DNA from: Caprimulgus europaeus
Taxonomy: Eukaryota > Chordata > Aves > Caprimulgiformes > Caprimulgidae
Length of the DNA stretch: 64,000 nucleotides
Assembly (NCBI GenBank): GCA_907165065.1
Contig: OU015539.1
Span: forward strand, 806,001-870,000
Reading direction: 5' to 3'
Shown here: positions 3,811-57,702 of the stretch, in pieces
How positions within the stretch are numbered: the stretch's first letter is position 1
Layout of the letters: every line of letters starts with the position of its first letter
Notes under the pieces: model-generated
The model's database searches: none
Seen by the model: the letters and a program-made list of their open reading frames with translations, nothing else
Told to the model about the DNA's origin: nothing
Position numbers and translations under genes: made by a program

Positions 3811-5266
3811 CAGTGCTCCCTCCTCCCTTCACCCTCCGCCTACGCTCCTGGCTTAAACGGGGAGAAGGTGCTGCTGCACTCTGGGCTCTGGGTGGGGCAG
3901 ATGGCCGTGGGTCCCTGCTCCATCCCGGGCTGCTGGCTGGTGACCCTGTGGCAGCTCTTCCCTCCTGGCAGGTTGTTATGAATGGAAGAAATGAAAGAGC
4001 AAGGGAGGAGTCTCCTGTGGAAGAGGCACTCTCAGCACTGTGTTTCCTCATCCCACTAATGCTCCGTAGGTTTGGGAGAGAGAGGGGCAAGGAAAAATCC
4101 TCACCAGATTGTTACAGAGAGGTCTGGCTCTGGCAGCACACTGTCCTTCCTGTGCTAATGCTCTCCCAACAGCTTCCCAAGCAGATTTGCTTGGATTAAA
4201 AACCCCGTTCTGGCATTCTTGTGTTATCACTTCTCTGTCCGCCAGTGCCGCACGCTCTGCCAGGGATTTGCAGTCCAGCTGCGCTTCCCACTTAAATGTC
4301 CTGCTCAGGAGAGCGCACTTGATGCCTTTGAGCTGAAAGGACCCAGGCTCTGCTCCTCTGCCTGCACTGCTCTGCTCTGCAAACACAGGCAAACTAAATC
4401 CTCTGCTAATGGCTGGGAAATGAGACCGTAAAGGGCTTTTGTGCCTGACCCCGCACCGCCGGACGAGGCAGGGAAGGAATCCTGTGCTGTGTTTTATTGG
4501 ACTTTGGTGGCTGCTGCTGCGGTGGCTGAGGGATCATGGCCCTTAGTGCCAACAGTGGAGCCCAAAGGCATGGGCAGCAAGGACAGATGGTGCTGGCTGG
4601 AAGGGGCAGAGGCTGTAGCTCCAGCTGTTGGGGAAGCCCATCCTGGACACATCCTTACAGAGCTGCCCAAGAAACATCCACCACCCAAGCAAGTCCCTGG
4701 GACGCTCTGCACACACATGGACTTTGCCCAAATCTGCCATGGACAATACAGAATTTACACCCTTGTTGCTGCCCAGCCTGGAAAAACAAATAAACTTCCC
4801 CACTTTTGTATTTCTCGCTGCTCAGCTGTGGCCAGTTCTTACCCTCTGCTACCTCTCCCTTCCAGCACAGGCAGCAGCTTCGGTGGGGGCAGAAAAAGAA
4901 ATTAACTCTGCTCTTATCACTGAGGAACTCTGCCAAGACAAAGGATTAGCCAGCTGGATGTCTTGCAGAGCAGAAGGAGAAAACACAAAGACCACAGAAG
5001 ATGGGGATAATCAGAGCTGCATGATCTAGGAGCGACCGAGTGACCTTGGCTTTATCCAACGAGTCACTCTGAGAAGCAAATCCTGCCTCTCCTGGTGTGG
5101 GAACGGCAGCTCGGTACAGCCCGAGAGCAGACAGGATCCCTCCGTGCACCCTGGGCAGCTGCTGTCCCAAGCTGAGGACCAAGCCCGTGTTTCATGCATC
5201 CCCACTCAGACCCTGCTCAGGAGATGCTTTTGAAAGCCCCTGAGCCGCTCTCTGTGCGCCTCTTAC

Positions 5267-5704
5267 CTGACGGTTACAACGTGGTGCTGCACCGGCCGCC
5301 GCTGCCCGGGGGACCACTGCTTCCAGGGGGTGTCTGAGGCCTCGTGGTGGGAAGCTGGCACAGGATCACTGCTGGAAAGGTGGGAACACAACACAGACCC
5401 CTCGCCGTGCCCAGGGAGCAGGGGCAGGCCATAGCTGGCACAGGGCTCTGAGGGGTAATACAGGTGACGCTGCTGCGAGTCCTGGGAGCTCGATGGCACC
5501 TGGCCGTTGGACTGGGTGGAGACTGGCCCAAGCGTGTGGCTGGAGGAGGGCAGGTGGTCTCCCCCCAGCCTGGGGGATGCAGGAATGGGGCAGTGATGGA
5601 CTGGGCAGATCCTTTCCCAGGAAGTGCCGCTGTAGCTGAGCTCGGTGTTCCCTATCTCCGGCATGGCAAGACAGGTCTGGCAGGGTCCTGCATTTTGTCT
5701 TTCT
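5267..5704 (-). CDS. DISP2: DISP2 coding exon 2 (cytosolic N-terminal region)
   Basis: This 438-nt exon encodes about 146 residues of low-complexity, Ser/Pro/His-rich sequence and ends in RRPVQHHVVTV plus two bases of an arginine codon. The VQHHVVxVR motif directly before the micro-exon is the best-conserved part of the DISP2 N-terminus. The acceptor follows TTTTTTCTCACAG (ending at 5705), and the donor is GTAAGAGG at 5266-5259. Phase in (one base) agrees with the donor of the proposed exon 1, and phase out (two bases) agrees with exon 3. No membrane segment is present, as expected for the disordered cytosolic leader. The open frame continues upstream through intron sequence to 5892, but that part is not exonic. 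Confidence 0.88.
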
Positions 5705-8700
5705 CTGTGAGAAAAAATAAAGATGGGGTAAAAGAGCAGAGCAGTAGCAAGGCCAAGCAGGAGGATCCCATCCTGCAGGCTGGAGACTCTCCCAGGCCTC
5801 CCACAGAACACAAGGTGTAAAACCCACCCACAACTTGGTGTACCCAGAGCCAAACTCGGGGCTGAGCTGGATGATGCTTTTTGTGCAGACACCCCTGACT
5901 CACACAGGGACTCCAGCTGAAGGAGAACCCATCACATCTTTGTGTGTGTTGCTCCAAACTTTTGAAACACTGGGTAACAACATCCCCTCAAACATTTCTC
6001 CAAGATGTTTCACTGGGAAGGGGGCAGAACGCGCTGGCTGGTGGCAACGGCAGGGTCACAACTCGGGACCGCGGGGTGACTGCAGAGATCTGGGGAAACG
6101 GCCACCAAAGGAGACTGCATGTGAAGGAGACAATGATCTGCACCTCTTGGGAAGATGAATTTATTTGATTGCTCTGCAGGGGGACTGGCTCTGCTCCATG
6201 TTGGGAAAGTAGGAGAGTGAATCATCCCTGGCACTAAAAGAACTGAACAGTGAACCTGGTGGCTGTGACGGTGTAGAAGGGACTTCAGCCTCCAGCCTGG
6301 CACATGCCCTGACAGCTCCCATCTCCTGTGGACTCCACCGGGCTCTTCAGGGTCACTAAAGGGACACACACATCTCCCAGGGATGACAGCAACAGATATT
6401 CTTGGTCTTGGTGTGTAGGAAGGGGATGGACTAGGATCTCTCAAGATCTTTTGAAGCTTGACTTTCCTCTAACTGCTCAATTTACTGAGACAAAACACTT
6501 GCAGACTTCAGCTCCCAAGTAATGAGGTCTCTGCAGGAGATGCCTTCTCCTCTCCAATGAATTTTAAAAATTATTTCATGCCTACAGTTCTTGCTTTATG
6601 GAACCTGAGAGATTTTGCTAGCTTGGAGAAAGCTTGAATAATACATTGAGGGACTGGTTAGTCTGTGTGACACCAAAAACCCCTTCACACACAACAGACT
6701 GAGGTCAGACTGACCCCAAAATGCCGTAGGAATTGCTGTCTCGAGAGCTGCAGCTGGTCAAGGGGTCGGAGATTCAGCAGCACTGTGTGATCTGGAGCTC
6801 AAACAGAAAGCACAGCATGGAAACACCAGTGGTCTCTGGTCCTGGTTCAGAGCACGTGCCGTGGTGTCTACAGCTGCCTCGGGTGTCCTGCCCTGTGTCT
6901 GGCATCGGGGACTGAGCACGATGAGCGATTCGGGCCGGCTGGAATCGGTGTCTCAGCCAAAGAACAGTGAGTGCTGGAGAGAGACTAGACTGAGATGAAC
7001 TTCAGCCTGAGGCACCTGATGCCATGGGGAAAAAATGAAGGCAAAATGTTGGAGAAGGGGATATTTTGGAAATTTTGCAGAGTCCCTCTCATTTCTTTTT
7101 CAGGCAACTATGGAAAAAGACAGAATTTTAGCAATCACAAGTGTCTGGAATTGCACCCAAAGTTCAGTGGCGTGACAACACCAGTGGCTAAGGGGTTTGA
7201 AGAGCACTGCTAGCCCAGTGCTGCTTGAACATTGGCTGGGTTTATTTTTCTTTTTCCAGAAAGAAGGATGTACTGGCCTTGGCAGCTCGAGCTTTGTACT
7301 TTCCAACATCAATTGAGTTTATCAACACTGAGAAACTATATTTCATAGTTATAGCAAATGGGCTCATTTCATTAAAATCATCACAACAGATTGATGTGTG
7401 GCAGCAGTGATAGCAGTGCTGGTGCAGAGGCTCGTGGTGCAGGCATCACACTCAGCGTTATCTGCACGGGGTGCCAGTGCAGGGACTGGTCACAATGAAG
7501 TGCAGGGCCATCCGTGGGGGCTTGTGGTTGTGTGCCAGCAGTGCTGGGGCAGGGAATTTTCCTCAGAGAGCTGGGGTAGTGGCAGTCTTGTGCTTTGGCA
7601 AGCTCTAGACCTTTCCTCACTCCCCTTTTGATGACTCTGAGTTACTCTTTTCCCTTTAACTCAATCCTCCTGTTGTTTTTCCTAGTTTTGTACACTTTAA
7701 AGAGGTGATGGTTTCCTACAATGCATAATAATTCAGAGACACTGCTGCACTGACAGCTGGTGCTTTTGGTGTTCCCACACCTGTACAATATTTGTGTTCT
7801 TTTTTTTTTCCAAAGAAAAAAACCAAAATTCTTTTTCATTTAAACTGCTGGATCTGCACAGGCGATCGGGCCCGCAGGCTTTCATCACCCACTCAGTCTG
7901 GTGGCTGCGCTGCCACGTCTGCCTCATCTGGTGGTGCCTGTGTAACACTGGACAGAACAAAGAGGCTTTCACAAAATACACTTTGAAGATGGTCAGGGAG
8001 ATGCAGGAAGCAGGGAATGAAAAATTCCTCCTCCAGAAACCTCTCAGCTACAAAACCTCCTGGTGAGGAAAGCAGATGACAAACACTTGGATATCACAGA
8101 TTGCCTCCTGTTCTTATGCACACACGTTAATATCTTTGATTCTAATATTTCACATGAAAGCTTTTTCTTCTTGTTTACCATCTTTGCTGTGAAATGCTGT
8201 CAAGCTCCGTTCTTCCCCTGCATGTTGTCTCCTAACTCAGTCCCCTGCCTGCTCAGTGACTTCATCTTGTAGAGTAACTTTGGCTAGTTCAAATCACTCG
8301 CTCGTGACTCTTCTTCATTATCTCCTTTTCAGATGAAACAATTACAGTTCTGTCAATCACCCTCTCCAACTCCATGACAATGTGACCTTGGTTACCCAGA
8401 GTCTCCAGGGAAACCTGGAGCTCGCAGATAATGATGGGTTTGGATAATCACTGCTGGCAGCCCTGCAGAATTCGACTCTCCACTCGCTGCGCTCCCCAAT
8501 TAGCCCCAGTGCCGGCTGCTGAAGGTTTGATGTGCTGAGGTCCGCGCCAGGGATGCGGCTGGGCCTTGTTTGTCTGCAACCACGTCACTGTCACTTTTCT
8601 GGGCCCACAGGACCCTGAACTGAGCTAAAAAATGGTTGTGGAGGAGTTTCTGTCACCTGTTTACTGTCAGGCCGGAGCAGAGGTGGGCAGAGCACTGCCC

Positions 8701-11700
8701 TGGACTCTGCCACGCTGACACTAACGAGGGCTAACAGCAGGGGAGAGAAACAGGTTTTTAATGTTCACTCCCAGCCTGGGCAGTGTCAGATATTAGACAT
8801 CTTGGGGAGTGAGTGGGCAGAAAAGGTCTCTCAGCCACAGAAAAGCCTCCAGAGGCAGCCTGACAGTCTCCATGTTCTTCAAGCTCAGCTGGATGCAACC
8901 AAAGAGAAGCTGGGAAAAGAGAGGACAGGGAGGTGTAGGGCACGGGAGAGATGGGATTTAACTGCTCCTGTAACCCACGGCAATGAGTTGAGTTTCTCAT
9001 TCCATTTGCTTCCCCATCTCCTCTCTTGAGATGTCTAGACAGTATAATAATGCAATTTATGAAACTGCCCGAGTCACTCTGAGCACAGCAGAGCTTTTCT
9101 GAGCCGAGGACCAGGGCACAGGCAGCCTCCTTCACGTGGGGGAACCAGCACAAGGACAGAAGCTTCTTCCCACGGGAGAACAGGCCAGATGAGGTCACGA
9201 TTTCTAAGGAGACAGCTCTCGGCTGTTCCACCTCTGCTGGGCCGTGGGGCAGTGGGAGGCACTGCAGGGTCTGGTAGCAGGCTGTCTCCCTGCCCCAGAG
9301 ACCAGCACCCTGCTACAACCCCAGAAGGTGTCAGCAGGACGTGGCTTTAGCTGCCCACCTCCCCACCAGCCTCAGCACCAAAGCCCCAGCAAGAGCGTTT
9401 GCTGGCAGCACCTCATGTTGGCCGCCGGTCCCCGACCCCTTCCCCCTGGGGACGGCTTCACTCTGTCAGCACACGGAGCTGAGCTCCGGCCAGGAAGGTT
9501 TGTGGGGCAGGGAGGTGACAGCGCAGGGTCACCTTCCCTTTCCTCAGCCACACAGGTTCTTTGGCACGTCCCTGGTCGTGCTTCCCCCTGAGCCAGGCAG
9601 CAGGAGAGCACGGGTGTCTGTGAGAGAGGAGAAATGGGCCAAAAACACGTGGCATTTTGAAGGAAGGGCTTCTTTATTGTTCTGCCTCGTCCACCTCATC
9701 CCCGAGACCATTTCTATAGGCACTTTTTTTTTAATAGAAAGATTATCTCACTCTTTGCATCCTCAGGAGAGGGTCAGGAAAGCAGCACTTTGCATGTGAA
9801 AGATGGGAAACACCAAGTGACTGACACCTGAGTCAAACTACAGCCCCTCCTGTTGACAGAAAGATCTCCAGGGGGAATAAAAACACGTGAGGAAGGGCAA
9901 GAGTCTCTGTCTTGGCTATGACCAGAGCACTTGTTCCCCAGGAACCTTTGTTCAGTTAGACACTAAGCACTGCAAAATTCCATTCATAAAAAAAGCACTA
10001 GTTTTATCTTCTTTCCCTTTTTTTTCTTACTCAAGCAAAGTTCAGTTCCTGTCAGCTGTACAAGTTCTCCCAAATGAAAAAAAAAAATCTAAATTCTTTC
10101 TGAATTAAAACCATGTGCTATAGCTCAGCTTCCATCCAGATTAATGGCTTTTTCTTTCAGAGCTGTAAATGACTTTCTAAGAAAGAGGGTTTTAAAGTGG
10201 AATTTAAATAGAGGTTTTCTCTTTGAACACAGGACCAGCAAAACAGCCGTGGAGCTCTCGGGAAAAAAGAGCTTCTTTGCCTGTGTCTTCTGAGGAGACA
10301 GGAGTGCCCTTTTCCAGAGATTAGGGAAGGGCTCCCTGCGTTTCACCCCCACCCCCTTACCTCGCTCCCCTCTCTAGGGAGGCACAGGCACCCCCCAGCA
10401 ATTCCTCTCCTCAGTCTGGGTCACTTTTTCCTGCACTGACAAATTGCTGCTGTTTGCTTGCTGTGTGGCTGCTGTTGGTTTGGCTGTTTCAGCCCAGCAG
10501 CAGGACAGCGTATCCTCGAGAAAACCGACCATCGTTTTGTTAATGAGACTCCCGGGTCTGTTAAATCATCATGAAAAATTAATGAGACTGCTAAACTCTG
10601 CTTCCCACGTAGTCTGCCAAGAAAAGCTGAGTTTTATCCTCCTTTCCATTGACTCCTCTGAACAGGCTTCCCCTTACCCCAGGCAGCTGCTGCCGCTGCG
10701 GGCACCGGTGTGTGTGACGGGACACAACCGGGTCCCCACCCGTGTGCAGGGCCAGGACAGGGCTGGCTGCAGTTCACTCCATCTACACTGGCAGGTGGTA
10801 AAAAATCATGTTTGCTAAGACTTGTTTTGAGAAAAAAATATAAAAATAATGAAGTGAAATGAAATGTAATGAAATTAAATGGGAAAGGAAAATAAACCCC
10901 ACGTTGCTATCCCAGTCTGAAAGGGGCCGGAAGGCAGGCTGTGTTTTCAAAGCCCTGTATTTCTGATGAAGAACTGAGCACTGATGGTGAAGAGCATTGG
11001 CTAGGAGCAGAGGATGGGGACCAGAGAGCTGACCCTGGAGCAGCTGTGTGAAGAGCCTCTCCTCAGGAGTGAGAGCTATCTTCTCGTACTTCACTGCCAT
11101 AAATTTTAATTCCTGAGCGAGCAGCAAGAGTGAAATTCAAAATCCACCTGTTTCAGGTGGCTTCACTCATCCCTACAACTTCACTCGTACAGGCTGCAGC
11201 ATCCATTTCCAAAGACCTGGCTGAGTGAGAGGGATTAGTCAGGCAAGCAGAACTCACAGGGCTTCAGCGACAGCTCCGACCCCACCAGACGCCCACGGGT
11301 TAAACAATGCGAACCAGGGCTGGGTTGTGTAACCGTCCCTCAGAGAGCACCGAGACCCAAAAGCACATCGGCCTCTGGCTGAGATCTTCAGAGCTGTCTG
11401 AAGAGGAGTGACTGCCCCGTTGGCTCCCCCAGGCAGGTGGGGAGGTCTCAGCACGAATATCCTGTATCAGGGTGACAGAAGTGAAACTCTTTGGCTTTCA
11501 GAAGGAATTTGTGTGCTGCTGACCTCGGGGTGTGCTCTGGTCAAACCAAATCTGAAGAGCTCAGAAGATCTGCTGCCGCTGGTCTAACATGTTTGCAAAA
11601 TCTGGGGATGGCTCCTTGCCCGTCCTGATGGGCTTGTTGACATTTCCCGAGAAAATGACCCTGCTCGTGGCTGCCAGCCTGGCTTCAGACACCGGCTCCG

Positions 11701-12269
11701 GGAGCATATGGCACAGGGGGGAGCAGGGGGGAGCAGGGGGGAGCAGGGTCTGGTAGGGGAGATCTTGGGACTGAAAACCGTCCTTGCCCATTGCCTCACG
11801 CAGTGAGGACGCTGACACATGCCGAGCTTCACCAACAATAGCTCAGGCGTTGCTGCAGAAGGGAGAGCTCACCGTGTTGCAGGATAAAATCCTGTCAGGG
11901 AGGGTTTGGCGCGGTTGGCTCCGTGTGGTTCATCTGGCCCCGTCCGGTGCAACGGGGGCACTGGCCGGGCAGCACCGACCTCCCGACCCCAACAGCGAGG
12001 GGCGGGCAGGGGGGCAGGCAGCGCGGGGCTTTGCCTGCTTTCGCGGCGGGAGGACGGGACGCACCTCAGTGGGACGGGGGCTTCGCACCCGACAGAACCC
12101 CGGTGGCACCGGCCACCTCCGCACCCCGAGAGTCGGGTGTGGCGGCACGGCGGGAGGCACCGGCTCCGCAGAGCCGGCTCAACCCCGCCGACCCCGGAAG
12201 CCCCCGCATCCCCTTCACCGGCCCCGCCGCCCCGTTCCCGCCCCGCCGCCCCGGGACCCGCTCTCTTAC
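5705..12269 (-). other. DISP2: DISP2 intron 1
   Basis: This is the large first intron. It contains a G-rich 11-bp tandem array (about 11714-11748), an (A/G)AAAT-rich tract (about 10845-10885) and a pair of TTAATGAGACT words at 10540 and 10579. Open frames at 8758-9231, 9244-9799 and 10444-11127 have no family resemblance and no supporting splice structure. No repeat family or RNA gene was recognised. Confidence 0.7.
11714..11748. repeat. Short G-rich 11-bp tandem array
   Basis: Three consecutive perfect copies of an 11-bp unit (CAGGGGGGAG core) occur in DISP2 intron 1, close to the CpG island. Confidence 0.85.
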
Positions 12270-12379
12270 CCGGGCGGGGTGGTGGCGCGGCCGCGCCGCG
12301 TGGCCCCGGTTGGCGGGGCGCTGTCCGCATCCCGCGGTGCTGAACGCTCCCGGCGCGGCGGGCCCGACGCGGGCTCCAT
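12270..12379 (-). CDS. DISP2: DISP2 coding exon 1 (predicted start)
   Basis: Within the CpG island a minus-strand frame starts at the ATG at 12379-12377 (MEPASGPPRRERSAPRDAD...) and runs 36 codons plus two bases to a GTAAGAG donor at 12269-12263. The two leftover bases combine with the first base of exon 2 to make a glycine codon, leaving the exon 2 frame intact. No in-frame ATG lies further upstream in the open frame, which favours this start. The family's N-terminus is poorly conserved, so the call rests on strand, phase, donor quality and CpG-island position rather than residue identity. A 72-bp tandem duplication spans the start region (see the repeat entry). A different non-homologous first exon cannot be excluded. 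Confidence 0.62.
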
Positions 12380-12433
12380 GAGCGGCGGGGCGCTGTCCGC
12401 AGCTCGCGGTGCTGAACGCTCCCGGCGCGGCGG
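12312..12433. repeat. 72-bp-spaced tandem duplication at the DISP2 start
   Basis: Two nearly identical ~50-bp blocks (12312-12361 and 12384-12433) are offset by 72 bp. Both contain the CGCGGTGCTGAACGCTCCCG word. Read on the minus strand, both encode RRERSAPR-(D/A)ADSAPP in the same frame, because 72 is a multiple of three. The left block is inside predicted exon 1; the right block is just upstream of the ATG. Confidence 0.9.
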
Positions 12434-12640
12434 CGGCTCGGCCCGGCGCTTGCGCGGCCGGGGAGGCGGGGGCGGGCCCGGCGCGGGTGGCCAATAGCCG
12501 CGGGGCGAGCAGCGCGGCGGGGGCTGCGAGGGGTCGGGGAGCGGCGAACCGGGGCTGTCCGCCAACTCACTCCACCCCGGGGGGCCAACCGGGTCCCGGG
12601 AGCAGTGGCGAGCAGTTGGCGGTGCAGGGAAGCGAGGTCT

Positions 12641-13181
12641 TCTCCGAGGCTGGAGGTGGACCAAAGCTCCTTGCCTGGCCCCAAAACCCCCTTCCCGCCC
12701 TCAGCCCCGACAGCCCACGGCCTTCCCCTTGTGAGGGTGCAGCGAGGGGGCTGCAGGTCCAACCAGTGCACAGACACCCGTGGGTGGCGGGTCCCCCGTG
12801 GGTGGCAAGTCCCTTGCTCAGCAGAGCTGTGCTGCTGCTTTGGCCCAAGGTGGGCAAGCTCCCAGACCGGTGTGGCAGGTGCAGGGCAGCACTTTGGGGT
12901 GTGTGGGTTCACCCTCTGGTTTTTAGCAGCGTTAAATAAGTAAATGACTTGTTGGAATAGATGTGAGGTTTGAAACAACTGAGTTGAAAACACAGAGAAC
13001 ACAAGGAGCTCAGACATGTTCCCACAGCAGGATCCTGCTGTCATTGTCTATAGATGCCACTAAATTGCACTGGTTGTGTGGCAGCCACACAGTCCCCCTG
13101 TGCCGTGGGGACAGCTTCCCACAAGGCCTGTGGAAGGTGGCTGCTCCTTCCACAACCTCTCCCATGCCAATGACCAGGACA
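12641..13181. other. Intergenic, downstream of the histidine-rich frame
   Basis: This is the stretch between the CpG island and the stop codon of the histidine-rich frame. If that frame is a gene, this would hold its 3' UTR on the minus strand. I saw no canonical AATAAA on that strand. No other feature was recognised. Confidence 0.5.
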
Positions 13182-13373
13182 TTACCTGCCCCAGGAAGGG
13201 CCTGAGTCTTTCTCATGACCGTGTGTACGGCCATGGGAGTGGCAGTGACCTTCTCCCTTCTCATCAACCTGTGTGTGGCCATGGTGATGCCTATGGCCTT
13301 CTCCTATCTCCTGGCCATGCCTGCAGCCCTCACTTTCTTCCCCATGAGGGTGGCATCCTTTTTGCTTCATGTG
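13182..13373 (-). CDS. Histidine/glycine-rich small protein, PHGR1-like by position
   Basis: A minus-strand frame starts at the ATG at 13370-13368 and runs 62 codons to TAA at 13184-13182. It contains 13 His, 13 Gly and 3 Cys. A 16-residue unit is present twice (GEGHRHHHGHTQVDEK, then GEGHCHSHGRTHGHEK), with a weaker third copy before it. The matching DNA repeat is about 48 bp. An acceptor, with a pyrimidine-rich tract ending in CTGCAG at 13379-13374, sits three bases before the ATG, suggesting an upstream non-coding exon. The last codon overlaps a possible GTAATG donor, so the frame could also continue into another exon. In mammals the His/Gly/Pro-rich PHGR1 gene lies between CCDC9B and DISP2 on the DISP2 strand, as this frame does. 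The bird frame is poor in proline, so homology is inferred from location and composition only. Such proteins can bind Zn, Cu or Ni, but no function is shown here. Confidence 0.45.
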   Translation of the reverse strand, partial: HMKQKGCHPHGEESEGCRHGQEIGEGHRHHHGHTQVDEKGEGHCHSHGRTHGHEKDSGPSWGR

Positions 13374-16300
13374 CTGCAGAAAAGCTGAGGCAAAAAGGGA
13401 GAGTATTAGAGCGGAGAGTATCCTCTAACTCCCACTAATCCTCTGGCTGCTTAGAATAAGCCCTTCCTGCCTTAATGCCTTAAATGCCTGAGAAGACAGT
13501 TTAGAGAACAAAAGCTTTTCCTAATGCCAGGGTGGGTGACTCTCTCCGGCCGTAGGCTGACGCCGCTCCGAACCGGCCACAGGGATTATCCGAGGCCAGG
13601 CTGGGGCAGCGCCACTGTCCCAGCACGATGATCCCTGTGGGGCTGGGCTGGAGGGGACCAGCCAGCTTTTCTGGGCCTTAGCCACAGAAATGTCACCTGC
13701 CTGGCAGGGTCAGATACGCTGTGAGGAGCAGCTACCGTGTAGTTTGTCTTACGTGGCCCGGCAGGAAAGACTGAAACCTGGAATCTGCTGAAAAGCTTGG
13801 CTGGCATTACTGTGAGGACAAGGACATGGGTGCTATTTCCTTCTCTTTCTTCCCAGGGCTGAATCAGGATCCGTGCAGCAGCAGTGACAATAACGAAGCC
13901 GTGGGAGCTGAGAGGACGGTGGGAACACTGAGCTGCAAACACCCCACCGGCTCTGACAGCCAGCCGCGTCTTACAGCCGTGGGCTCGGCTCAGCCGACGT
14001 GCGAGCTCCTTGTCTGTGAAGTGGGGGTGGTCACACTTCCTCACTCCCACAGCTCGGCAGCTTCCCTCTGTGGCCTGCAAAGTATTTGCCACAAGGATTA
14101 ATATTTTTGAATTGCCCTTACGCAGGGCCCGTGCTCGCAGCTGGCTCGGCAGGGCTGTGCTCGGCGCTCGGCGGGGCTGCACTCAGCGGGGCTGCCCACG
14201 GCCCTCTGGGGCTGTTGCCACACGGCTGGGGCTGGAGCTCTTGGTGGCTCTTGGTACATCACAGTGGCTTTTTTTTTTTTTCCTTTTTGGCAGTGCAGGA
14301 GCTGGCTTTTTGCCATGGCAACCCAGATCTGAGACCTGCCAGCATCAGATGGGCCCAGCTGGTCCCTGGTGTCCCTCTGACGTGAAGGAAGGTGGAGGAG
14401 GCTGAGCAAGAAGGATAGAGAGATGACCAAAAAAAAAAATAGAAGCCAAGAGAAAAATAGCAAAAAAAGGAGATGTCAAGTCAGGAATACTAAAAAAGTT
14501 GACAGACAGTAATGGATACATGTGGAGAAGAGAAAAAAGTTGGTGAGCAGATAAAGGGGGAGAGGGGAAAGGAGTGGGGCTCAAAACCTCTGCTAGTCAA
14601 AGGCTTTAGGTAGGCAGACATGGAAAAAGGTCAGAAAGCAGCGCTCCTGGGAGAGCCAAGGCAAACATCTCCTTGGCACCACTCCTGGGACAACCAGGGC
14701 CAACATCTCCTCAGTACCTCGTACTTGTTGTCTCCACAGGAGGCAGGGTGAGGTAGGAAAGCTGCCAAGGGGACTGTAGAACTGGCCCCCAGGAGGAGAG
14801 CTGGGTAATTTCTGACACTAATTGGTGTTTGTAGCAATTGCAGACAGGTTTCTTGCCTCTCCTGCTTGGCCTGTGAAAGAGAGAAGAGAAAAAAAACTTT
14901 GCATGTGAGCTTTGACACATTTTTCACTTGAAGCATCTCTGTTCTTCATTTTGCACAGCCTGTTGCTCTTCCCAGCCTTCCTGCTCACCATCCACTTCCA
15001 CTTCTTTCACAATCAAAAAGCAAAGCCTTGTCTCTGCAGCTCTGCTGTCTCGAGAGCAGGCAGAGGCAGAAGTGAACACTACATCTCGCTGCGTGTGCAG
15101 AGTCCCCCCAGCTTGGAGGTTCCCCCCTGTCCCACCAAAGCCAGTAACAAGGCTGCCTTTATCTTGAGAACAAGCCGAGCTTTGCGGGTTCAAGCCAGAC
15201 ACATCCTTAGAGAAGCCCAAGAAGGCAGAGTGAGGCTTTCACTCGGCGCACTGGCAGGCGTGACCGAGAGCCTTTCCCAATGGATGTGCCTTGCACTCCA
15301 GTCCCAGGTCAGCGTGGCTCATTTCATGGTTCCCTGTCTTAGCACGGTTCCTTTCAGAGTGATTCGTTTTCCTCTGCTGTAAATCACATTTCCCCAAGCA
15401 GAACTGAGCTGGGTTCACCGTGTCCTGCCTCCTGTCAGCAGAGCTCAGCGTTTCACACGGCAGTCGTGGCCGGCTCAGCGAAGCCCACGCAGCAGCTGGG
15501 CAGGGCAGGGTGCTGGAGCGTGGCGGGCCCAGGCTCGTGCTGTTTTGCTGTGTCTTGGCTGATTGCTGACCTTTGCTGTCACCTGTTGTAGCTCAGGTCA
15601 CTTCAGTGACAGCCATTTCGGTGGTTTGGTGGATACCCCAAACACCTGGGGCAGGAAAATGAGATGGAAATATCACCTACACACTGGGACTTCTGCCAGT
15701 TAGGGCAAATCCTCAGGGTTGTGCTTCCCCGAGTGAAGCAACTCTCCACAGGCAGCAGGAGTGTGCACACACCACATGGTCACCCCCAGCTGAGGTGTTT
15801 CCACCAGCCAGCACAGCCGTGCTGCACAGGAAAGCTCCACAAGGAGCCCTCGCCGTGCTGGCCAGGCAGCCGCGTCCTGCTGCTCCCCGCTCCGCGCTGC
15901 CTGTGTCTGGCTGTGCCAGCAGCCAGCGCCAGCACTCAGGGAGGATCAGCAAGTCCTGGGATCTTCTGGATAGGAACACACTGCTGCAGACACACTGTGT
16001 CCCAGGAGGGGCTGGCAGGGAGCAGGGGCTCCTCCTAGACCTTGGTCTAGACCTGCTGCGTGGGCTCCCACCCCAGTGCTGGGAGGGAGCGGCTCTGGTG
16101 GCTGAAATCCTGGAAGCCAGGTGTCCCTTTCTTCAAAATCTGCTTGGCTCTTGGCCCTGCACTGCAGCACTGGAGGAGCTGCCTGTGCCCATCAGCACAC
16201 AGCAGCAGCCAGAAGCTGATGCTGTCCCCAGTGCCTGGTGCCAGGTAGAATATTGCCACTCTTTGCTTGATCAGTTTCAGACTGGTGGAGCAGATCTAGA

Positions 16301-19300
16301 GGAGGCATGTGCTGATCCCAAGATTTCAGCCCATTATGGATAAAACCCAAGAGTGAGCAGGAAGGAGGAGCAAATGGGGATCTCAAACTGTTCTAGGAAC
16401 ATAAATGATCCCCACAAGACAATTCCCTCAAGCTGAGACCCTCCTTCATCCAGAGGAATGTTTTCTTCCTCGGTCTCTGGCAGACCACGACGGGTGAGTC
16501 AGCAGGAGTCTGGATCAGTCTCTTTGGAGGGGGATGCACCCCTGCCCCCTGCTGCAGGCACTGCTGCCCTGGGCCTCAGGAAAAGCACGCTCAGAGCTGG
16601 CTGCTCTCGGACTGTGCAAAATCACACCCGTTACGAGCTCTGTGGACAGCCAAGCCACGGAGCCACCGTGGCCAAGGCCAGGCTGGAGATGACCGTGCAG
16701 CCGCTCGGGTTTGCAACAGGCTGCTGTTTCCAGGCAGTGTGCAATGTCTCGCTGATCTGCAGCCAGCTACGTTCAACCCTGGCCTGTCACTGCTCGCTGG
16801 AGCAATAAAATAGCAAGGGTATTTTTGTTCCTCAAAGCCAGTGACGGCGTGCCAGACACCTCCCGTGCTGGATGATTTCCATGGTACAGCAGCAGCAGTC
16901 CTGGCCTCGGCTGCTTCATAAACCTCCTGGTGTCTCAGCCCGGGAAATTGCTTCCTCAGGCAGAGCACAGGTCCCCTGCGGGGCTGACGCTGCGTTAGCA
17001 AATCGACCCCAGTCACCTTCACTCCACAGAGGTTGTTTTACAGGTGGGTGTAGCTCCCCACCTTCTGCAGCTTCAGGAGGGTTTAATTTAGAGATAGAGA
17101 TGGGCTTTAGTCACAGCTTGAGTGCCAAGACCCGAGTCAGACCTGTTTATCCCAACAGCCACTTACACCTAGGCTGACACAGACCAAAACCATCAGTGCT
17201 GGGTGCTGGAAGAGAACAGCCTGGGTGTGTGTTTGTTCTCCCTGACAGAGCCGGTCTGATTCGCTGTGCCAGCAGCACAGCACGAGCCATGCTCTGCACA
17301 GAAGGACATCTGTCTCTGTGGACATTTGCACCCAGCAGAGCCCATCTTCTTCCTCCTTGCACCTCCACTCACGTGGGTCAGATGAACTGCTCTGTGATTG
17401 CCATTTTCTGGCTTGTAGGTGCACTGGTGCTGTGAATTCTTAGAACTACTGAAAAAAATAAGATTTAGTGTCTATTGATTCAAAGCTCTTTGTGACCACT
17501 CGGTCCTGGGATGGGCTTGGAGGAGCTGTTACCTTCCAAAATTTGCGCAAAGTTGTCTCTGCTGATAGGAATCATCCTCCACAAGGGATGCATCAGCATA
17601 AGACACAAGATTCCAGGGGGACTGAGGAACCAGGCTCACGGGGCAATTGGAATGGCCAGTGATGATTTTGGTCCATCACACGTGCCCGGGGTGTGCTGGC
17701 GCATGGCCCACAGACAGCACGGGAAGGAGAGGTCCATGCAGGCCCCTTCTCTGCTGCTCAGGGTGACTGTGAGGTTCCTGCAGTGCTGGAAACCTTTGAG
17801 TGGCTGTTGACACAACACCATGGGCTGAGAAGGTGCCAGGCATATGGCAGTTATGTTTCTGGGCACCAGTACATTGCAAACTGAAGCAAATAAGAGCTGT
17901 GATGAGTTCACTGTGTGTTTGAAGGGGCAGGAGGCCCATGGAGACCCAGTTCAGTGGTGTCTTGGCAGGGACAATCTCACTGTGCACCATTTTCTGTGGT
18001 GCCTTGTGCTGGGAGCACAGCCACGTTTGCTCTGGAGCAGCCCATATGTTCCCGCCGTTTCCCAGCGCGATTGACAGTGAGCCAGTTCCCTCAGAGCATC
18101 CTGAGATATCCCAGACTCATTAATCCTTTGTGTGGAAATATTCTTCTTAGGAGGATCAGGGACATCAATTCTCAGCCTGGGGAAGGCCAGAGGAGACGTT
18201 GGGATGTATCAGCACACCTTGACTGTGTCTGTTACAAAACCTTCTTGAGCTTCCCAAAGGTTTGAAAATCACGGCTGGCTTTTAGTGGGACTGAGGATCT
18301 TGCAAACAGCCTGCACAGTGTGGTCCTGCCAGGACTTGGCCGAATACTTGTATGAGATCAAAGCCAACCATCCCTCCTCCCAGGCTCCTGCAGCTCACTA
18401 GACCCACATTTCAAGACTGACTCTGCAAAAGACACTGCACCCGAGTGTCTCCCAGCACACTGAAGCCGAGCACTGAAATGCCTGGAGTGTGGGAGAGGAG
18501 ATCTGAGCTGACATTTCCCCAATGGGAAAAAAATAGCTTATAAAAATCCTTCCAACTGCCTGAAGTCTTGTGTGAGGGAGGGAGAAACTTATGTCCCCTG
18601 CTTTGTTTACAGCCCTGCTGTGTCATGTTTGCATTCAACACGTCTCCAAAGGCAGCCGTGCGATGCCCCCTGGAGCACACAGCTCCAGCATCTCCCTCCC
18701 AGCCCGGAGGCCCCTCCTCTCCTGCGCTCATCTGCTTCGTTAGCGGCGTTGCTCGCAGGAGGTCACAAGTGCTGCTGGCTCCTGTGGTTGTGCCTGGTAG
18801 CTCTGCAGGCTGACACCACCCCTGTTATCGCCACTCGGCAAACGCGGCCGAGGTGTCAGTCACCAGGACACTCTCACCCTTGCTAATCTAATTTTTCAGT
18901 AGGGAAATTTGCCTGAGAGCTCCAGGGAGTATGCAACCATCTGCCCTCCTGCTCCAGCCCTGCGAGGAGGGACGGTGCAGCTCTTCCTGTTGTGGCAAGG
19001 CTTGTTTAAGGGGTTCCTGCTCTCCCATTCCTCACTTGGGTGTGTTAGGATGGTGCTAGTAGATTTATGGACAAGAGAAAATCTTGGCCTGCACGAGTCT
19101 GTCCATGCCAAGGAAAAGAAAATCAGGGGAATGACCAGTGGTGGCAGGTAGGAAGTTTTAACATGGGGAGAGCTTTTTATTTTACAACCCCATTCTATCA
19201 TTCTTTATCTTGGTGAATCTAAGCTGTGCCACAACACCTTCAAAATAGGAATATTACAATCTTGCCCAGGACAAGTTTAAATTCCAACCATAAAAGCCAG

Positions 19301-22300
19301 TTGGGAAAAGCTCCTGCTAGCAGGGATGGTTTCCCTAAGAGCAGTTGGTGGTTTCTGGACTGTTGTGAAAGCAATGAACAAAACTGCAGTTGGGAATAGG
19401 ACCAGGTATGATGAAGGACAGAACTGCTCTGAAATACAGCCCTGAGCCTGGCTGTTGAACCTAGCGCTAACAAGGTTTTCCTCTCTGCCAGGAGAAACTC
19501 CTCCTGCCTGCGCAGGGCTGGCAGATCCCAACCAAAGATCGAGACCTCCCATCCCTGTGGGCTGAGCTGCCAGCCCCCTTCCTGATCCTTGTTTGAATTG
19601 CTGATCAGAGCTGAGCTGCTGTTAACTTTCCTCCTGTAAGCCACTGAGTGCTGCTGGCACAAGCAATTTCCTTCCTCTGAGCCTTCACTGATATCACACG
19701 GGCCCAGACCCAATCCACCGTGTGCCCAGGGCTGTCACAACCAGAGAATTAACCACGAGCCCATCCCTCAACCTGTATTCAGCCCCAAATTCACCCTTGT
19801 TATTTCATAATAACAACCCCAGCCCCACTCACACCACAGACTAGTTGAGTCTCCTCTCGGTCCGCAGTAAATGTGCCATAAATTTATCACGAGCTGAACC
19901 TCCTCAGCTTGTGCAAGGGTTGAAATAAGGCCAGTGTGGGAGCAATTGTGACCACAGCTGGGAGAAGGACCAGTGTCTCCAGCTGGGCTTTAATTCACCT
20001 CTTGACTCATGATTTCCATCCTGCTGGAGCACGGATTATTTGCAATTTCAAGAGTTTTCTGACACTTGAGTGAAGTACTCAGCCAGGCACCGCGCAGCGA
20101 GTGTCTGCGAGCGCTGCATGTACCTCCACCCTTTCTCTCCACCCAGGTATTAATTACTGTTGAACTGGTCCTTTAATATTTAATTGCCACCTTGACTCCC
20201 CTTTTCATCTCCTCCCTTCTCAGGTGTCTCTATCCTCTTGCAGGCTGGCCCTTGTGCTTTCCCTGGGCTTGTTCTCCACATCAGCTCCGCGCCCTAACGC
20301 CGCGTGAGAAAAGCCTGTGTCCCTGCGAGCTGAGCCCAGGCCGAGCCCATGCAGCGTCGGGGCGCCGTGACGCCGCCAGAGTCCGTGAAGAGTCTTCAGT
20401 CTGGTTTAGACCCCGGAGCCAAGGTTGGTCTCTGGAGTTTGCTTTTGAGTTCTCCTGGCACAGGGAAGCAAAATGGTTTGTTAGGTTTTAATTGAGCTTG
20501 GTTGGGATAAGAGGCACTCGTGGGCTTGGAGAACAGTCCCTAAATTTGACTGAAAGTGGGTCATGTCGCCACTGGTGTAGCCCCAAAGCAGCCCTGTGTC
20601 CAGTAATTGTGTCTTTTTGTAGTTCACAAGGAGCACATGACTGTGTCAAGAGCCAGCTGTCTCTCGACATGCTCATTTGCAGCTTGTGAACTGCAGGTTA
20701 CAGGCCACTGGGCTGCCCACGTCCTCCTGATCTGGGCTGAAGCCACGGGCTGGAATGGGGAACCTCCCATGGCCCCTGGTGATGACAGCTTTCACCCAGG
20801 GTGAACCAGCTGCTGCCTGCAGCTCTCCATGCTTTCCCCAAGGACGACATTTCCATAAAAGATGGAAAGAACCTGCCTGACTGGCTGTCCCAGCTGCTTT
20901 CCACAGCCTGGCACCATTCCCAAGGCTGGGTTGTGTGTCCCACATCTGAAGGCTGGGGTAGCAAATGGGGTCAGCAAACCTGCATTTGGCCCTGCTGTGC
21001 TTGTGTGGAAGTGGGAAGAAGTAAGAGGACAGATCCTCTTATTGTTCACTCAGCTTCAGAGGCCCTACACTAGAATTACAAGTCTTTCTGGAGCAGAAAA
21101 TGTCAGGTGAGGTGATGAGACCATGAGTTATTCAAAGTGGCATTAAACATGGGTAGGCACAGATCTCACCTGCAGAAATTGGGGCAAGAACCTGCAGGCT
21201 GGGATGATGTTCAGGGAGGGGGGAAAGAGGGGACACACTTGTCCTCCAACGGGAACAGGGCTGCTCTGCGTGTCCTGAGAAGGTTCTGTGCCGGTGCTAT
21301 GATTGGTATCGCTATGGGAAGTACCAACTATGATCTTCACTGATTTTGAGCAGGACCAAGCTGTTCTTCTATCCTTTAAGCAGCTTTGGTAGCTTTCATT
21401 TTAATTTCATATTGATACATTTAAAAATGAATGTCTCAGCAGTCCTTTCATCCCAATGAGTCTCTCCAGCACTGTGCAAGAACCAGGACAAGCCTGTTTA
21501 AGGTTCCTGGCTGGTGCCTCCTCCCAGTCTAGGGAATATGCTGACCCTTCTCCTGCCTGGCTGGAGGAAAGGCCTCCAATGCATTTTCATCCTGAGGTGC
21601 AGCTGGCGAAGGACCAGAGCGGGGAGTGAGCAAGGGAGGCAAAGGAGGAGTTCGCTTATTGCGGGGAAGTTGGGTTTGTGGTTGGTACCAAAGATGCCTC
21701 CAGGCTGCTGGGAAACTCCTCTTTGATAAACTGCATGTTCCAGCCCTCCCTCTGTCCCACAGGCCTGGAGAGGGGCTGCTGGTTCTGCTCTGGAGCCTCG
21801 GGCAGGGTGATCAGTGAGTTCATCACTGCACACAGCAGCTTGCAAGAGCTCCTCTGAAACTCGGCCCGTGGCTTATCTGCAGTCCCGATACCGGGTATAA
21901 AAGCATCCTCCCACAGCTGCCAGACCTCGGCTCCCCTGCAGTGGGCTTTTTGGCAGCGGATCCCGGCTTCTCCCAGCAGTTACCGAGTGCCATCTGTTGA
22001 CTAAATAACGGCCATGCAAAAAATGGAGAGAAGCCAAGATGAGAACGGGTGAAGTGCACTCGGGGAAAGTGGCAGCATGGGACTGAGTGGCTTTGGAGGA
22101 GTTTCACGGAGTGCAAAAGGAAAAGGAGGGAGGGTGTCAAGCCAAGGCAGCTCCTGCTGGTGGAAGGGCTGATGAAGGGATGCCAGGAATGCTTCTCGGG
22201 GCAGTCAGGTTTGAGTTTATTCAGGGATCAGATTCTTTCCTTCAGCCTTTGTGTAAGGCAGAGAGACAGAGAGGAAACACACAGTCAGAGTGTGGGGGAA

Positions 22301-29540: not shown

Positions 29541-29664
29541 CATTGCTCCCCTGAAGGGCCAGAGGCGCCTCGCTCCTTCATAGCTGAGGGGCCACACGGC
29601 CTCCCCTGATTGGCTCAGAGGCCACACGGCCTCCCCTGATTGGCTCAGAGAGTTTTGGCGGGAA
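29541..29664 (-). promoter_or_regulatory. Tandem CCAAT-box / E2F-like block
   Basis: A perfect 30-bp unit is tandemly duplicated (29591-29620 and 29621-29650). Each copy holds one CCAAT box in minus-strand orientation (ATTGG at 29609-29613 and 29639-29643). Immediately beside it is TTTTGGCGGGAA (29653-29664), a good match to an E2F site. About 50 bp downstream on the minus strand is an ATG in GC-rich context (29543-29541) starting MAALWVVSKRGG, open for 39 codons to a stop at 29426-29424. The arrangement resembles promoters of cell-cycle or housekeeping genes. I do not recognise the short frame, and no splice partner was found, so this could be a cryptic promoter within CCDC9B intron 1 or a coincidence. 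Confidence 0.35.
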
Positions 29665-40929: not shown

Positions 40930-42172
40930 GTAAGTGCACTGTGAATGACTGGACTGACTGCAATGTGCCAGTGGCACCCACTGGTTCTGCTGGCATGAGA
41001 CGGGCCATGGAGACAGGAGCTAGCCCAGCACCAGGACACTGGGAGAGACTGTATATTAATAGTGTGGAGCTTATCACCCTAAAACTCTCTGGCTTCATCA
41101 CTGTGAAAGAGGAGAGGCTACAATCCTTTCCCTTCTCTGTGATCCTAGCTAGAGCAATGGGGATTTCCATAAGGAAAATCAGATGCTGTTTTGGGAGGAC
41201 TGATGAGAGCACTGCCAGATATGGGGCATGAATCTCACCTCCTGTCTCTTACCAACTTCTTTCTGGGGCCGTACTCAGATCGAGTCGGGAGCGCTCTCCT
41301 TTTGACCCACTGCACAACTTAACAGAGCTTCATGTCTGCTTCAAAACCCAAGTCCTGCTGTGCCTGGCCATAACCTACGGGGTGAGCTGGCTGAACTCTG
41401 TTAATCTTTTAAACATATTTCAAATACTTCTTCACAAATACCTTCCTCTTTACACACACGGAGGCATGTGATATTTTCCTCTTTGAGAGTTTGCACAGAT
41501 AAGTAAGAATGCCTGCAGCAAACAGGGTCAGCAAAGACTAGGAAGGAAAACAACACTTAGTGGAGCTGCCAAACACACCCAGGAAGGCTGGGAGACCCGC
41601 AGCACCCTCTCTGGGACAGCAGCCAACCATCTGCTAACTGCCCACGTTAAATCCTCAGCTTCTCCTCCTCCCCAGAGTTTACCTCAGGCTCTGAAGGCCC
41701 GTGTGCTCCTTTCTCATGGCTACCAAGCAGTTTTTTCAATGCCACAAGCCTCATACAGGCTGCCTGACTGAGCCCTAGTAACCACCCATTCACCAGCAGT
41801 TCACGTGGCAGATGGAGCTCGTTTCAGTCTTGAGGATTAGTGTTTTAAACAAGTACTTCTTTTTTCTGATAGTGATAGTGCTTCAAAAATTGAAACCAAG
41901 CAAGTCTGTCTCACATGCTGTGCCTCGGAGCGATGTGCTTCTCCAAGGGGCACTGGAACGCTGCAGTGCAGAGAGCAAGTCAGCAGTAGCAATTACAACA
42001 TGTATTAAATGCTCTATTAAAGAATTTGAGCCTGCAGAACTCAGTGTCATGGGGATGCTGAGTATAACAATTCATTTTGGAAATGGGGGTCAAATCCCAC
42101 CAGAACTGCTGGGATCACAAACCCTGGCAGCCCTGGGCTTCAGTTCCCCTCATGTAAGCAGGGTTACAGCAT

Positions 42173-42346
42173 GCCTCTGCCTCTGCCTCTGCCTCTGCCT
42201 CTGCCTCTGCCTCTGCCTCTGCCTCTGCCCCTGCCTCTGCCCCTGCCCCTGCCTCTGCCCCTGCCCCTGCCTCTGCCCCTGCCCCTGCCCCTGCCCCTGC
42301 CCCTGCCCCTGCCTCTGCCTCTGCCTCTGCCCCTGCCCCTGCCCCT

Positions 42347-42378
<32 letters not shown>

Positions 42379-42446
42379 CCCTGCCTCTGCCCCTGCCCCT
42401 GCCCCTGCCCCTGCCTCTGCCTCTGCCCCTGCCCCTGCCTCTGCCT
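42173..42446. repeat. Hexanucleotide array (CTGCCY)n
   Basis: About 45 uninterrupted 6-bp units alternate between GCCTCT and GCCCCT variants. Because the unit is a multiple of three, each frame stays open and translates to a two-residue repeat, which makes spurious long open frames. The two unit types are arranged in blocks rather than at random. It lies within CCDC9B intron 6. Confidence 0.97.
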
Positions 42447-50561: not shown

Positions 50562-50746
50562 GATGGTGGGAAGCCAGGCCAGAAGAGCCCTGGAGAGCTG
50601 AGTTTCCCCATGAGTGGCCGGGAACGCTCGGAGTACATACGCTGGAAGAGGGAGCGAGATCAGATTGACCTGGAGCGACTGGCGCGTCACAAGAACGCGA
50701 AGGGCGAGTGGCGACGGGCTTGGGATGTGGAGAAGTCAGAGCACAT
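50562..50746 (+). CDS. CCDC9B: CCDC9B coding exon 8 (conserved central block)
   Basis: This 185-nt exon encodes the best-conserved block of the family: MSGRERSEYIRWKRERDQ, then IDLERLARHKNAKGEWRRAW and DVEKSEHM. CCDC9 has an almost identical MTGRERSEYLRWKQEREKID...GQWRREWDAEK segment. The exon enters in phase 0 after TGCCTGCACCAG. It leaves after two bases of a methionine codon at a GTAGGT donor, which the first base of exon 9 completes. A second GT four bases later would put a stop in frame and is rejected. Confidence 0.95.
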
Positions 50747-52140
50747 GTAGGTCCTCCACAGTCCTGGGGTGGTTTGTCTGCAGCAGGCCATCTAAAGCCA
50801 GGGATGAGCTCTTGTGCAGTTATTTATTGCTGATCAAATCCCATGCTGTCATGTGCCTCCCCCTGACCAAATCCACATTGCTGTCTCTTTCTCCTCCTGA
50901 TCATGTCTGTTAGTGGGACCAGATACCAGAGTGATTCTTGATTTTCTTTCTGACATGAGGTCTCCTACCCTGACAGGAGATACTGTGTGCTGACAAAGAT
51001 TGCCTGCCTTTGATCCCACCAGGACTTGGACTGTAGGAGGGAGGGGAGTGTGAATCAATGCTCAGTCTACATCTGGAGGGTCCTCTCTGTCTCCACATGA
51101 ACAAATTCAGTGGCAGGAGAGTGCAGGTGCTCTTCTAGAAACAGGGATGGACAAACTCATGTTGCTAGTCCACAGGTTTTCTCACAGCCCTGCTTGCTTC
51201 CCTTTTCCAATCACAGGGCAGGCAAAGGTGCCTAAATCCTCCACACCTCATAAGCAGCCCGCTCGGGCACTGCGGTGTGAGGGGGTCACTCCAAAGGGTG
51301 GCCTGTGTGATAGGGGGGAAATGCTGGGGACAGCAACGTGGGAGAGCTCCTAATGGGGCCTGACACTTCCTGGCTTTAAACATCCTCCCTCTAACTCTGC
51401 TTGTTCAACTGGGTCACACCAACTAGCAAGCTTTGGAGGGTGATGTGGCACCTGCAGCAGGATGAGGTTTTGATAGGGTGTGGAGTTAGGGAATGTTACA
51501 CAGGCTTGCTGATAAAAGAGTTTGTACAGGGCAGATAGGTGTGACAATCTTTTGGCTGGGGAATGGGACCAAATACTTTGATTTTCAGTCACTAAGACCC
51601 CAATAATTAGGGGTGAATTGACTTCAGCAGGTGCTGAGTGTTGCTGGCAAGACAGCTCTGAGCCCTACTGTTCTCCTTTATATCAATTTTTAAGAGAAAA
51701 ACCATAATAAAAACCAAGCAGGATTAGAAAACAACCAAATGAGTCTGATCCACAGGTCTGATCTGAGAAGACAAGTCTGAAACTACTTCAGGTTGTGTTT
51801 AGAAGCCTGGGAAGCTGCGTTTGAGCCTTGTACACTCACACCACAGTCATCTCTCTGTAGGCTTCATGGATGTTCACACAATTAAATACACACACACACA
51901 TATGGGTACTGATGTAAGGGTTTTAGAGGTTCTCCCTTGGGTAGAATTGCCTCACAGCCTCATTTCTCCTGGTTAGTGCATGCAGTTTCAGCTCCTGCTG
52001 ACAAACCTGCGCATATTTGCCATGGGCAGGGGCAGAGGGGCCGAAGGCTGGAGCCTGCCTTGTCTCGAGGTCTCCTGCCCACGCTTTTGCACACCGGAGG
52101 AGAACAGCCAGGTCTGACAATGCCTGTTTTTAACCTGCAG
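50747..52140 (+). other. CCDC9B: CCDC9B intron 8
   Basis: This intron contains a short CA dinucleotide tract at about 51888-51902. Nothing else was recognised. Confidence 0.8.
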
Positions 52141-56916: not shown

Positions 56917-57702
56917 AAGAGCCTTGGTATGGACAAGCAGAAGAGCAGAGGTGAGGAGGGAGTGGAAGGGAACTGCACAGCTGAGCTGGAGGAGAAGGTG
57001 AAGCAGCCAAGCCTGCAAGATCATGGGACCTCCTCATCACAAAGGCTACAAAGTGGAAAAGCCCAGTCTGCCCACAATGGCCAGAAGGAGGAACAGAAAG
57101 GAGTGAAGGGCTTCAGCACAGAGGTGTCTGTGGCCAGCACAGGTCACTTAGAGCCAGGGCCCAGGCCAAGTAAGGAGGGTGTTGAGGAAGATGCCAATGG
57201 GAAGCCCAGCCCTGCTGACATCTTTCAGGAGAAGGAGAGTTCTGACAGCACCACTTCACCGAGCAGCCTTCCAAGCACTGTGCAAACCACCCGGCACGGC
57301 AGCGAGGAGACCTTGTCATTGCCCACGGGAGGGAACTTAGGTGGAGCTGGCTTAGAGAAAAACACAGCCTCAGAACAAGAGTCCATGGAGGACTCTTCAA
57401 ACAGCCACAGGGGAAAGCTGGACACAGCAACAGGAGACAGACTGGATGCAGGGCAAGGACAGCTGGAGAGAAAAAGAGAGGAGGAAGTAACCCAAGACAC
57501 TGCCCTCCAGGGGCAAACACTTGCACTGAAAGGAGGTGAAGATGCTGAAGGCGCTGAACACAGAGGAGAGCCTTTGCCCCCAAGAAAAGCCAACTCTGAC
57601 AAGACTGTTGTGTCTGAGCAGGACACAGCAAAATCACAGTCCAGGGAAGGGGACCAGCCTGAGGACTGCAAGGACAAGGACAGTGGGGACACTCTCAACT
57701 AG
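56917..57702 (+). CDS. CCDC9B: CCDC9B coding exon 13 (acidic disordered C-terminal region)
   Basis: A large exon of 261 codons plus TAG is read from a TTTCTTCTTTTCTTAG acceptor in phase 0, starting KSLGMDKQKSRGEEGVEG. It is rich in Glu, Ser, Gln, Gly and Lys, with no hydrophobic segment or folded-domain signature, and matches the long low-complexity tail of CCDC9-family proteins. With the preceding exons the product is about 647 residues. The stop at 57700-57702 may be secondary: in a shifted frame the same DNA continues STSKDCTSLPEAE up to a GTGAGT donor at about 57735, followed by a phase-compatible exon at 59888 (see findings). Confidence 0.9.
   Translation, partial: KSLGMDKQKSRGEEGVEGNCTAELEEKVKQPSLQDHGTSSSQRLQSGKAQSAHNGQKEEQKGVKGFSTEVSVASTGHLEPGPRPSKEGVEEDANGKPSPADIFQEKESSDSTTSPSSLPSTVQTTRHGSEETLSLPTGGNLGGAGLEKNTASEQESMEDSSNSHRGKLDTATGDRLDAGQGQLERKREEEVTQDTALQGQTLALKGGEDAEGAEHRGEPLPPRKANSDKTVVSEQDTAKSQSREGDQPEDCKDKDSGDTLN

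Follow-up and report, generated by a model that had tools for sequence, protein, structure and literature searches.

A histidine/glycine-rich open frame between DISP2 and CCDC9B in Caprimulgus europaeus, possibly a small exon in the position of mammalian PHGR1

The window analyzed here is a 64,000-nucleotide stretch of the Caprimulgus europaeus genome (contig OU015539.1, positions 806,001 to 870,000 of the forward strand), and our interest lies in a short histidine/glycine-rich frame in the interval that separates DISP2 from CCDC9B, upstream of the former gene and on the same strand as it. DISP2 is represented by a large minus-strand exon just outside the window. In the PDB this exon finds structures of Dispatched homologue 1, with a best E of 5.9e-296, and a Pfam search at E 1 yielded nothing for it. 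We take this exon to belong to DISP2 rather than DISP1, based upon its sequence and the neighboring genes. Inside the window, a second exon is presumably also part of DISP2, judging from the motif VQHHVV.VR together with the large exon; Pfam recognized nothing in the surrounding open frame (5266-5931). The likely first exon of DISP2 sits in a CpG island of about 11801-12800. On the other side, CCDC9B is marked by an exon with a DUF4594 domain; the other genomic copy of this domain, on contig C56, was taken for CCDC9. The features of the two flanking genes within the window are the following.

5267..5704, minus strand: putative second exon of DISP2 (acceptor score 9.5, donor score 7.0)
12270..12379, minus strand: inferred coding part of DISP2 exon 1 (ATG at 12379, donor at 12270, in-frame join to 5704-5267)
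50571..50750, plus strand: CCDC9B exon with DUF4594 (PF15266; E 2.9e-24, with one stop inside the match)

The first-pass annotation had placed the candidate between DISP2 and CCDC9B in the DISP2 orientation, and both the PDB match and the DUF4594 exon bear this out. Mammalian PHGR1 sits exactly between these same two genes, and the candidate shares both its interval and its strand relative to them. A human association table lists CCDC9B, DISP2, and PHGR1 at one chromosome 15 locus (PMC8850418).

Read on the minus strand, 13182-13373 translates to HMKQKGCHPHGEESEGCRHGQEIGEGHRHHHGHTQVDEKGEGHCHSHGRTHGHEKDSGPSWGR and ends in a stop codon. The features of this small region, including a frame on the opposite strand, are as follows.

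13182..13370, minus strand: His/Gly-rich frame (ATG 13370-13368, TAA 13184-13182, 62 codons spanning 13370-13185)
13186..13373, minus strand: candidate 188-nt internal exon, open throughout (start possibly at 13384, after an upstream AG)
13374..13395, minus strand: polypyrimidine tract carrying two acceptors in tandem, CCTCAG and CTGCAG, read from the sequence
13180..13188, minus strand: donor CAG/GTAATG, which shares bases with the in-frame TAA and is weak at +5, where it has T rather than G
13210..13257 and 13258..13305, minus strand: two in-register 48-nt repeat copies (16 codons each), 73% alike
13206..13385, plus strand: hydrophobic mirror frame, 60 codons from stop to stop, with a single match in the genome

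Counted from its Met, the 62-codon frame holds 13 His, 13 Gly, 2 Pro, 4 Lys, and 3 Cys, so that its length and its His and Gly counts are just as originally described. Over the 61 residues preceding the last Arg, the composition is 21% His, 21% Gly, 13% Glu, and 3.3% Pro (2/61), and the translation includes the stretches DSGPSWG and GCHPHGEESEGC. The stop-free frame extends back as far as 13424 (80 codons). For comparison, we used 264 kb of DNA, covering the window and a further 100 kb to its left and right, in which the six frames hold 2168 segments that run for 60 codons or more without a stop. The candidate has the highest His count per 60-codon stretch of all of these (14, vs 11, 11, and 10 for the next segments) and also ranks first by the smaller of the His and Gly counts in each segment's His-richest stretch (11, vs 9 and 8 for the next). 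From 13000 to 45000, the minus strand has no second place where 25 codons contain 6 or more His. Thus, the His/Gly composition of the candidate stands out as exceptional for its neighborhood. The openness of the frame by itself says little, since two frames are fully open across 13186-13373 (the candidate and one plus-strand frame) and a third has just one stop.

The candidate frame also has the outline of an exon. Splice sites were scored with a simple frequency matrix, and their ranks refer to the 42,160 AGs and 27,268 GTs of the 264 kb. The acceptor at 13373 scores 5.70 (best 1.3% of AGs) and the alternative at 13384 scores 6.53 (best 0.8%); what had been described as a strong acceptor is therefore a good one, although not outstanding in a simple matrix of this kind. 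The donor at 13186 scores 3.36 and falls in the best 2.4% of GTs. As the TAA of the frame overlaps this donor, the region can be a 188-nt exon, and the donor is newly recognized here, adding to the acceptor that had been noted before. We then counted exon-like intervals, defined as 100-300 nt between sites at least about as good as the candidate's and open in some frame, with thresholds set just below the candidate exon's own scores. There are 56 in the 264 kb, where the candidate is counted twice for its two possible starts, compared to a mean of 18 in 10 dinucleotide shuffles (range 10-27), from which at most about two in three such intervals would be genuine exons. That fraction is an upper bound, given that acceptor-like sites are fewer in the shuffles (mean 310) than in the real DNA (565) and that the thresholds lay so close to the candidate's own scores; part of the excess is due to pyrimidine runs, because shuffling breaks up such runs. 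Among all of the exon-like intervals, the candidate has by far the largest share of His (0.23 and 0.22 for its two starts, vs 0.12 for the next).

The surrounding minus-strand signals are sparse. There is no AATAAA or ATTAAA from the exon down to 11110 and none of eight polyadenylation signal variants in 12400-13190, while canonical signals occur further down the intron, at 11110, 9735, 9678, and other positions. Between the candidate exon and 12400 no acceptor ranks in the best 3%, and from 12900 down to 11461 none exceeds a score of 3.5. On the upstream side, the motif TATA[AT]A is absent from the minus strand of 13380-20000, and the context of the candidate start codon is weak by the usual rule. 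Accordingly, no first exon, terminal exon, or canonical polyadenylation signal was recognized near the candidate. Elsewhere on the same strand, a strong donor at 14989 (best 0.7%) and a textbook acceptor at 14870 (tied for second among the 42,160 AGs of the 264 kb) form a join that reads ATG/GCC and is open for 80 codons, in which no known gene was recognized. We left this pair out as an upstream part of the candidate gene model; 14870-13948 contains no donor above a score of 1.

Homology searches returned little for the candidate. In Pfam, no family passed its cut-off with the candidate frame, its extension to 13424, or the mirror frame, and a weak match of the candidate was to Zip (E 0.039, 13.6 bits vs a cut-off of 35.1). 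The PDB sequence search found no relative below E 0.19 and gave two zinc-finger fragments at E about 0.2 that match by composition only, and an Rfam scan of the window at gathering scores gave nothing. The His-rich loops of ZIP and CDF zinc transporters do resemble the candidate in their HGH- and HSH-type clusters, a likeness echoed by the Zip match; however, this match is far below the curated cut-off and composition-driven, and no transporter domain was found in the frame. Within the genome of C. europaeus itself (1.18 Gb, 121 contigs), a DNA search produced one match, which is the candidate, and a protein search produced one further match on contig C11 (E 0.63), where the frame shows no overall enrichment in His and Gly. 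Within the limits of these searches, we found neither a close paralogue nor a dispersed repeat of the candidate.

Much of the frame is built from the two 48-nt copies listed above. In codon register, the copies EIGEGHRHHHGHTQVD and EKGEGHCHSHGRTHGH (EIGEGH.. and EKGEGH..) are 71% alike, and weaker partial copies flank them on either side; a partial 20-nt match between 13282-13301 and 13312-13331 is 70% alike. A 16-residue unit present twice plus a weaker third copy had been reported at this site, which agrees with the two in-frame copies and the partial ones found here. Tandem Repeats Finder reported no array at the candidate frame. A self-match as good or better occurs in 34 of 2798 overlapping 188-nt control tiles, while 0 of 500 codon shuffles of the candidate region self-match as well. 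The repeat in itself is consequently not rare for the surrounding DNA.

Comparison of the two copies gave no significant sign of purifying selection, because 22% of 2960 neutral simulation runs produced a ratio as low as the observed pN/pS of 0.53 (corrected dN/dS 0.41). Both copies were still open in 63% of these runs. The differences between the copies fall 3, 4, and 7 times on the first, second, and third codon positions, respectively (P=0.15 for at least 7 of 14), and a stop-bearing plus-strand frame has the same ratio as the claimed frame (0.49 each, both scored over 45 nt). The synonymous codon score of the candidate is -8.5, which lies in the lowest 5% of 225 noncoding windows, in a test that separates held-out genes poorly. 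These average -0.2, 1.7, and -5.0, compared to -1.9 for noncoding DNA, and the test thus has little power and settles nothing. Its training set consisted of the exons of DISP2, an open frame assigned to BAHD1 by eye, and the open frame 56917-57699, which was assigned to CCDC9B by its location and in which Pfam found no family. Overall, the direct coding tests of the candidate are all null or underpowered.

With this evidence, several explanations of the frame have to be weighed. It could be open by chance within a short tandem repeat of 48-nt units that has decayed upstream of DISP2, its His and Gly arising from a CATGGCCAC-like unit and no protein being made, an account we regard as a strong contender whose odds nevertheless stay somewhat below even. 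Self-repeats of comparable quality in 34 of the 2798 tiles, the persistence of both open copies under neutral drift in 63% of the 2960 runs, the second fully open and third nearly open frames, the low synonymous codon score together with the lack of a sign of selection, and the searches that ended with no Pfam family over its cut-off and nothing in the PDB below E 0.19 are all as such an origin would have it. It must, however, also accommodate that the most extreme His frame of the neighborhood occupies the place and strand expected of PHGR1 and is bordered by an acceptor and a donor. The combination of composition, address, and exon shape is unlikely to be an accident.

Two further explanations would make the region part of something other than a separate small gene. 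As an alternative first coding exon of DISP2, it would be transcribed from upstream and spliced from 13186 to 5704, so that it would stand in for the CpG-island exon and DISP2 would begin with a His-rich N-terminal tail. This is a serious though less likely reading, and we consider it improbable. The join from 13186 to 5704 is indeed in frame, stop-free, and of the same phase as that of the CpG-island exon (12379-12270), and no canonical minus-strand polyadenylation signal intervenes between 13186 and 11110. Such a phase match would nonetheless arise by chance one time in three, the donor at 13186 is weak, the splice would have to skip a CpG-island exon that already supplies an in-frame start, and canonical polyadenylation signals do exist deeper in the intron (11110, 9735, 9678, and others). 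DISP2 is not known to have an isoform with a His-rich start. Less probable again, and in our judgement very unlikely, is that the feature belongs to the other strand, where divergent transcription out of the CpG island of DISP2 would run across the candidate and either the hydrophobic mirror frame or no frame at all would count. The mirror frame is open with a synonymous score of +4.9 vs -8.5 for the minus-strand frame, albeit in the same low-power test, and the plus strand carries very strong acceptors at 13857 and 14294 that, together with its donor at 12849, may mark a divergent noncoding transcript. Against this explanation, the copies within the mirror frame differ mainly by replacements (pN/pS 1.8-1.9), and the frame has no Pfam or PDB match. 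The mirror frame is the antisense image of the His/Gly frame (VFLMTVCTAMGVAVTFSLLINLCVAMVMPMAFSYLL...), and the acceptors at 13857 and 14294 are two of the 18 best in the 264 kb, just beyond the DISP2 CpG island.

The explanation we prefer is that the region is a real small minus-strand exon encoding a His/Gly-rich, repeat-built peptide, the positional counterpart of mammalian PHGR1, and we put its probability at about 0.42, a figure that, like all of the odds expressed here, is a judgement rather than a computed value. Human PHGR1 is a gene of four exons with a 434-base mRNA and 82 residues, of which 29% are Pro, 18% His, and 31% Gly (PMC5803922). Like that protein, the candidate is short, internally repeated, and His/Gly-rich (21% and 21%, respectively), whereas its Pro content is 3% rather than 29%, it is rich in Glu and Lys, and its repeat unit is 16 residues long compared to about 11 in PHGR1. 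The same paper reports three Cys and one Lys that are present in all of the aligned orthologs, which are from primates and rodents, and places the single trypsin site of the human protein at residue 6, where a conserved Lys precedes a Gly (PMC5803922). The candidate similarly has K4-G5 near its start and three Cys, but with 4 Lys in 62 residues and at positions that are unaligned with those of PHGR1. Aligned with a 36-residue stretch of human PHGR1, which is a weak yardstick, it reaches a score that 293 of 2000 composition shuffles also reach, and hence has no significant alignment to that stretch. Within the window sequence, the four-exon structure and transcript of PHGR1 were not recognized around the candidate. 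The original proposal of a PHGR1 counterpart is therefore supported in part: place, strand, exon appearance, and His/Gly content fit, but the Pro content does not, and the human stretch is no closer to the candidate than shuffles are. The candidate may work like PHGR1, but on sequence it is not assignable to it.

If the exon is real, its transcript would start at a first exon further upstream and would probably be made in the gut epithelium, like that of human PHGR1, which peaks in the most mature gut epithelial cells and has a function that is not settled (PMC5803922). The peptide would probably be disordered, and clusters such as HRHHHGH and GHCHSHG could bind zinc or copper weakly in the enterocyte cytoplasm. 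The metal-binding or mucosal role suggested in the original proposal is conjectural. Turnover of the repeat may have put Glu and Lys where mammals have Pro. A rebuilt PHGR1 repeat is plausible given that PHGR1 is listed among proteins that combine high compositional order in human with low order in mouse (PMC3836704). A more tentative proposal, which we find possible yet doubtful, is that PHGR1 is an amniote gene that birds have kept beside DISP2, with its Pro-rich repeats exchanged for a His/Gly/Glu/Lys repeat, such that only the place, exon shape, and metal-binding character are conserved while nearly all residues have been replaced. A non-mammalian counterpart of this sort would suggest an origin of the gene in the common amniote ancestor, and would point to the His clusters and Cys, rather than Pro, as the essential features of PHGR1. 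It would also provide a clean case of repeat turnover rebuilding the sequence of a gene while its place and role are retained. Conversely, should the frame be due to chance, it would illustrate how readily a repeat yields a convincing small gene at a meaningful address.

Other repeats are present in the window as well. Tandem Repeats Finder reported a 30-nt tandem repeat at 29583-29650 (2.3 copies, 94% matches) and a (TGCCTC)n hexamer array at 42172-42446 (about 46 copies, 94% matches), the latter of which encodes a Cys-Leu/Cys-Pro repeat in an open plus-strand frame.
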